A model generated the notes under the pieces. That model worked only from the letters and a program-made list of their open reading frames with translations, had not been told where the DNA came from and made no database searches. Below are positions 7,682 through 8,001 of a stretch of 10,483 nt of DNA, one piece after another. Within the stretch, counting starts at the first letter, position 1. Each line of letters starts with the position of its first letter. The DNA comes from Microcaldota archaeon (GTDB lineage Archaea > Micrarchaeota > Micrarchaeia > Micrarchaeales > Micrarchaeaceae), in the NCBI GenBank assembly GCA_030039935.1, contig JASHUQ010000003.1:1-10483 (forward strand), read 5' to 3'. Made by a program: the position numbers and the translations under genes.

Positions 7682-7894
7682 TCAATCGCCGAATTTGAAT
7701 ATGTATGAGTCTATGTCCTCTTTAAGTATTGTCTTTCTTCCCTTTTTCTTCGCCTGTGTAACCGCATATCTTGCTATCCTCTGCGCTTTCTTCTCAAGGA
7801 TGCGCGATATCTCGTTGGCAGCCTTGTCTGTTAGCATTATGTCAGAATTCCCATTAACTATCTTCTTCACAGCGGTTTTCGGAATCTTCGACAT
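7682..7894 (-). CDS. archaeal histone
   Basis: This is a DNA-wrapping chromatin protein of the HMf type, forming dimers and longer hypernucleosome-like stacks. From ATG 7894 it is 70 residues, the normal length, and consists of a single histone fold: IPKTAVKKIV (helix 1), an acidic-to-basic loop, the long helix LTDKAANEISRILEKKAQRIARYAVTQAKKKG (21-52), the conserved RKTI loop (53-56, DNA contact) and KEDIDSYIFKF (helix 3). The frame extends to a TTG at 7915, but that would add seven atypical residues and would start against the D box of the guide RNA. GGT in register before ATG 7894 favours the shorter form. The lysine-rich character is typical. The mRNA leader contains the box C/D RNA at 7916-7971. 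Confidence 0.93.
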   Translation of the reverse strand: MSKIPKTAVKKIVNGNSDIMLTDKAANEISRILEKKAQRIARYAVTQAKKKGRKTILKEDIDSYIFKFGD

Positions 7895-7915: not shown

Positions 7916-7971
7916 TCAGCACTCAAGATCATCTTCATAGCTTTGGGCTCAGCGTAGTGCATTATCATCAT
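7916..7971 (-). ncRNA. box C/D guide sRNA (2'-O-methylation guide)
   Basis: On the minus strand a complete archaeal C/D layout is visible: C box ATGATGA (7971-7965), 12-nt spacer TAATGCACTACG, D' box CTGA (7952-7949), 10-nt loop, C' box ATGAAGA (7938-7932), 12-nt spacer TGATCTTGAGTG, D box CTGA (7919-7916). Archaeal sRNPs (L7Ae, Nop5, fibrillarin) strongly favour 12-nt spacers, so two exact 12s are hard to obtain by chance. The C' box has one change from consensus, as is usual. By the N+5 rule the D guide, complementary to CACUCAAGAUCA, would methylate the C in its fifth position; CUCAAGA is the anticodon loop expected of tRNA-Leu(CAA), making that C the wobble C34. The D' target, CGUAGUGCAUUA, I cannot place. 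The RNA lies 21 bases before the histone ATG. Terminal pairing outside the boxes is weak. Confidence 0.8.
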
Positions 7972-7992: not shown

Positions 7993-8001
7993 TAATAAAA
8001 A
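7993..8001 (-). promoter_or_regulatory. TATA-like element for the guide RNA and histone transcript
   Basis: The minus strand reads TTTTTATTA here, centred about 25 bases before the C box, so transcription would begin almost at the 5' end of the sRNA. The histone could be made from the same transcript, with the sRNA in its leader. Confidence 0.4.

Follow-up and report, generated by a model that had tools for sequence, protein, structure and literature searches.

What is a two-guide RNA doing directly in front of a histone gene? The question is raised by a stretch of 10,483 nucleotides from a Microcaldota archaeon of the family Micrarchaeaceae (GCA_030039935.1, contig JASHUQ010000003.1), referred to below as the window. 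An earlier note, made from the letters alone, had described a box C/D guide RNA there and proposed C34 of tRNA-Leu(CAA) as its likely target. The guide lies directly 5' of an archaeal histone gene on the same strand, a link that is absent from that note.

The reading favoured here, with considerable confidence, is that of a box C/D guide gene whose D guide would act on C34 of tRNA-Leu(CAA) and whose RNA would also be the 5' leader of the histone mRNA. Judged separately, the assignment as a guide for C34 is very likely to be right and transcription of the guide as a histone leader is likely, while expression of both from one promoter is probable. Transcription would begin at a TATA promoter, starting about at the C box, and would continue into the histone gene. 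The D guide would bring fibrillarin to the wobble C34 for 2'-O-methylation, and trimming behind the D box would set free a histone mRNA with hardly any leader.

Structure of the guide RNA

The four boxes follow one another on the minus strand in the order first described, exact to the base (7971-7916), and re-measurement over the same interval again gave two spacers of 12 nt and a D'-C' loop of 10 nt (Table 1). A search pattern for C, D', C' and D that left the first spacer and the loop fairly free matched once in the window and in none of 200 dinucleotide shuffles. Over the 711,578-base assembly the pattern had three matches and the same pattern backwards had none. Two more C/D-like RNAs are present in the assembly, at G000:C70:10544-10591 (L227) and G000:C87:1471-1524 (L228). 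Rfam gave no match in the window at gathering score.

Table 1. Features of the guide RNA and its surroundings in the window
Feature	Position	Strand	Remarks
TATA-like box TTTTTATT	7994..8001	-	30 to 23 nt 5' of C box
C box ATGATGA	7965..7971	-	RTGATGA in 54/56 histone-anchored loci, TTGATGA in 2/56
D' guide TAATGCACTACG, 12 nt	7953..7964	-	candidate 16S rRNA target (9 bp), weak
D' box CTGA	7949..7952	-	CTGA in 52/56 loci, CCGA in 4/56
D'-C' loop, 10 nt	7939-7948	-	
C' box ATGAAGA	7932..7938	-	RTGANGA in 52/56 loci, RTGATGT in 4/56
D guide TGATCTTGAGTG, 12 nt	7920..7931	-	7930-7921 complementary to tRNA-Leu(CAA) 31-40; fifth base from D faces C34
D box CTGA	7916..7919	-	
Archaeal histone gene, 70 aa	7682..7894	-	ATG at 7894; PF00808 E 8.4e-9; D box to ATG 21 nt

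The genome encodes fibrillarin (PF01269, E 1.1e-81), from which the presence of the C/D machinery was judged. The neighbours in the window (Cdc6, thioredoxin, histone and HisRS) are archaeal, and further ones are taken to be exosome-region genes.

tRNA-Leu(CAA) as the predicted target

The proposed target was sought in the organism's own genome and is there: a tRNA-Leu(CAA) gene at G000:C17:7930-8027 has the anticodon arm ACGGA CTCAAGA TCCGT, which contains ACTCAAGATC. The identical 98 bases recur at the end of contig C116, a second copy that is probably a contig-end overlap. The tRNA search of the assembly returned 31 matches, 30 of them above the cut-off. Pairing between the D guide and this tRNA is Watson-Crick at ten of ten positions (tRNA 31-40), with N+5 on C34. 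Both guide positions that flank the 10-bp duplex are unpaired; the base adjoining the D box, a guide G opposite G30 of the tRNA, had already been suspected of not pairing. When 29 of the genome's own tRNAs, its own 23S locus and the 16S loci of relatives were compared as partners of the D guide, tRNA-Leu(CAA) scored highest.

Across the order, the tRNA-Leu(CAA) pattern was matched in 116 of 164 genomes, as against 10 of the 137 others; the 48 order genomes that gave no match may be incomplete, or their gene may be intron-bearing or different. All order rows read GACTCAAGATC, with variation in the outer stem pairs. Because positions 30-40 of the tRNA are identical in these rows and the guide is also invariant, a covariation test between guide and target is impossible.

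The T loop of tRNA-Leu(CAA) carries a short insertion with a GTTCAA...GAAC-like inverted repeat (L024 1501-1598; L339-L357, L361-L380). By a rule devised for this analysis, insertions of 10-21 nt are present in 35 of the 40 order genes inspected and absent from five. The insertion is probably a tiny non-canonical intron; introns in the T loop are known in archaea, according to the relevant part of PMC6379350.

Conservation and spread of the guide

Conservation was first assessed independently of the guide pattern. A histone search of 60 relatives matched 58, and the guide was looked for upstream. That the boxes would be retained in relatives proved correct: boxes and 10-nt guide are kept in 56 of the 58 histone-anchored genomes and in 39 of 41 genera. 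In these 56 genomes GATCTTGAGTNCTGA stands directly upstream of the histone gene, and GATCTTGAGT-N-CTGA is accompanied there by C, D' and C' boxes; the two exceptions are G029 and G050. A profile was anchored at the D box, each genus being represented by a single genome and the two genera that lack the guide being omitted. Neither the D box nor any of the ten guide bases varies among the 39 genera, and each guide base carries 2.0 bits. Next to D the guide has G or A, and its twelfth base varies freely; leader and coding positions around the block, those behind the D box among them, do not exceed 0.56 bits. Given ten invariant guide bases between variable flanking ones, the conserved block is the paired block.

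The strict C'-guide-D pattern was found in 130 of the 164 genomes of the order and in 38 of the 137 genomes from the rest of the class, and a control with the strict pattern reversed gave none among the rows listed. The block also occurs in at least 119 stretches of named genomes. The record titles of 80 of these stretches give 27 Micrarchaeota, 2 'Marsarchaeota', 21 Thaumarchaeota/Nitrososphaerota, 16 Thermoplasmatota and allies, 8 Thermococcales, 3 Heimdallarchaeota, and one each of Diapherotrites, Euryarchaeota and 'Proteobacteria'. A C34 guide for tRNA-Leu(CAA) common to such widely separated archaea points to an old and little-sought modification.

The single 'Proteobacteria' record (L145) has a thaumarchaeal-type guide at a contig end, and this contig is probably mis-binned or chimeric. 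In 16 of the 21 listed thaumarchaeal loci (L073, L076, L081, L095 and 12 more) a UPF0047 gene lies just 3' of the guide, a second case of the guide repeatedly occupying a leader position, with another host gene. In several of these loci the boxes are enclosed by a GC-rich terminal stem.

The D' guide

The D' guide of the window pairs over 9 nt with the 16S stretch GGTAGTGCATGG of relatives, with N+5 on a G; no SSU (16S) rRNA gene was found in the organism's own assembly (G000). G006 has a different D' guide, with a 16S match of 10-11 nt. The idea that D' guides are rRNA guides in general was dropped. Among 86 distinct D' guides, eight have an rRNA run of at least 9 nt (four of them at one 16S site), and 20 shuffled sets gave 0-4 runs of 9 nt each (mean 2.1). 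With so few runs against this background, most D' guides look like orphans. The window-type D' guide may tentatively be regarded as a 16S guide. In G004 position 1000 of the 16S rRNA corresponds by alignment to 1043 in one E. coli copy; this copy seemed to be offset from the standard numbering, and no standard number is claimed.

Linkage to the histone gene

Guide-anchored and histone-anchored matches together supplied 126 guide loci of the order, which cover 121 of the 130 strict-pattern genomes and four more with a variant C' box. In every one of them (126 of 126, from 125 genomes) a histone gene lies downstream on the same strand within 400 nt. In other families of the class no histone was found beside the guide in 32 loci, from 32 of the 38 guide-bearing genomes; three of these loci (L191, L192, L207) have less than 250 nt downstream, and the profile used to detect histones derives from those of the order itself.

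One gene family lies behind the histone in 105 of the 126 loci. Because conservation of gene order extends beyond the histone, the linkage of guide and histone need not mean function, and the downstream neighbour is weakened as proof of a special linkage. Upstream neighbours are less kept, the largest clusters comprising 64 and 62 of 126, a rough estimate affected by wrong-frame ORFs and unequal flanks.

Probable promoter, start codons and genomes without the guide

With the start taken as the first ATG after D, or otherwise as the last other start, 68 of 126 loci have the histone start 4-5 nt from the D box, and 118 have it no more than 25 nt away. The histone start is necessarily inside the RNA in five (L053, L279, L280, L281, L316). 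In these five the guide bases also encode the histone N-terminus.

Boxes could be parsed in 125 of the 126 loci; here positions -30 to -24 relative to the C box form a T/A block. A+T reaches at least 96% at -29 to -25, and further A-rich positions lie near -34/-33 and at -11 to -8. The block and the A-rich positions are spaced as in an archaeal promoter whose transcripts would begin near the C box; the usual promoter spacing of archaea is also given in PMC3491384. In the window itself, the poly-T run before the ATG could end transcription ahead of the histone. Of 121 histone leaders, 108 match GAGGTGAT over four bases at most, but the same holds for 11 of 17 genes in the window, so nothing follows from this Shine-Dalgarno comparison.

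Two relatives lack the guide. In G050 a TATA-like TTTTTTAA occupies -30 to -23 relative to the ATG of the histone, the distance of a leaderless message; it looks as though the RNA had been excised and the former guide promoter now made a leaderless histone message. In G029 TATTTATT remains at -51 to -44. No guide was found elsewhere in these two genomes (93% and 84% complete) at up to two mismatches, and likewise none in G003 and G036. As G050 retains both tRNA-Leu(CAA) and the histone, the guide there is either dispensable or diverged.

Alternative explanations

Box C/D motifs are short, and a chance motif or the ribosome-binding region of the histone might imitate them. Such an origin is extremely improbable given the empty shuffles and the full 2.0 bits that each of the ten guide bases reaches across 39 genera, and the same block occurs in distant archaea with no histone beside it. 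Another target for the D guide, in place of tRNA-Leu(CAA) or in addition to it, is quite unlikely. The runner-up partner (L029 1501-1596) is read as tRNA-Ser(CGA), an anticodon assigned by eye from the loop; ten positions of that loop, AACTCGAGATCT, can pair with the D guide, one of them (N+6) as G-U, whereas tRNA-Leu(CAA) pairs without wobble.

It is an evenly balanced matter whether a real guide that methylates C34 has the histone only as an inherited neighbour, with readthrough or independent expression and no coupling. These are small genomes with kept gene order, as the family behind the histone illustrates, and most archaeal C/D genes adjoin or overlap ORFs (PMC7994747). However, a histone start within 25 nt of the D box in 118 of 126 loci leaves no space for a second promoter, and the upstream neighbourhood is, by the rough count above, less kept than the downstream one. 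It is rather doubtful that the leader is a switch, in which L7Ae or the whole C/D RNP would set histone output, or each transcript would become either guide or histone. G021, G232, G233, G234 and G025 speak for it: they have no in-frame start after the D box, so the histone must start inside the RNA and excision would destroy the reading frame. So do mRNAs with leader k-turns that are repressed by L7Ae (from the portion of PMC5539422 on such leaders) and the lowered reporter expression with 5' overlap, an arrangement that is rare at 7% (PMC7994747); the Shine-Dalgarno comparison, in turn, is uninformative. The fuller version, a regulatory leader that couples chromatin to translation because C/D RNP assembly and excision choose between guide and histone message, is unlikely; if it were true, histone supply would track C/D protein supply.

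Relation to known systems

The favoured reading, a C34 guide that also forms the histone leader, combines something already known with something that may be new. PMC7994747 reports sRNAs of Pyrococcus directed at position 34 in four tRNAs, namely tRNA-Leu(CAA), Leu(UAA), Met and Trp. C34 of tRNA-Leu(CAA) is listed as predicted in P. furiosus in PMC7668247, and Cm34 is reported to have been seen in some tRNAs, among which the passage concerned does not name tRNA-Leu(CAA). The Pyrococcus sRNA (Clouet d'Orval 2001, as summarised in PMC7994747 and PMC7668247) has the same predicted target and nucleotide and the same C/D-C'/D' design, and the C'-guide-D block is also present in Thermococcus records. 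Compared with that sRNA as summarised, the present guide heads a histone gene and has another D' guide. Other C/D guides for C34 are sR50, in the intron of pre-tRNA-Trp, and the sR49-type tRNA-Met guide (PMC7994747, PMC2584109); the Haloferax Met and Trp guides are covered in PMC2584109. sR50 resides inside its target's intron, whereas the present guide is a separate gene in a histone leader.

What may be new, if tentatively, is this place in the histone leader, of which literature searches of open-licence papers found no report. C/D genes that overlap the 5' end of an ORF (Tripp 2017, as cited in PMC7994747) likewise lie before or over a start codon. As portrayed there, such overlaps are 7% of C/D genes and reduce downstream transcription; they are rare and costly, but the present guide is kept with one host gene across the order loci examined. 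It would be a natural, order-wide case of a guide RNA as the leader of a histone message, though reporter work calls such overlaps costly. The L7Ae autoregulatory leader, in which a k-turn mediates control by L7Ae (PMC5539422, in the part describing it), is similar in placing a k-turn RNA in an mRNA leader. That leader is a lone k-turn on the l7ae mRNA, whereas here a whole two-guide RNA precedes a histone mRNA, and regulation is putative. Control of an archaeal protein gene by a C/D RNP is now directly testable, since RNA reads from a Micrarchaeum co-culture have been deposited (PMC8975820).
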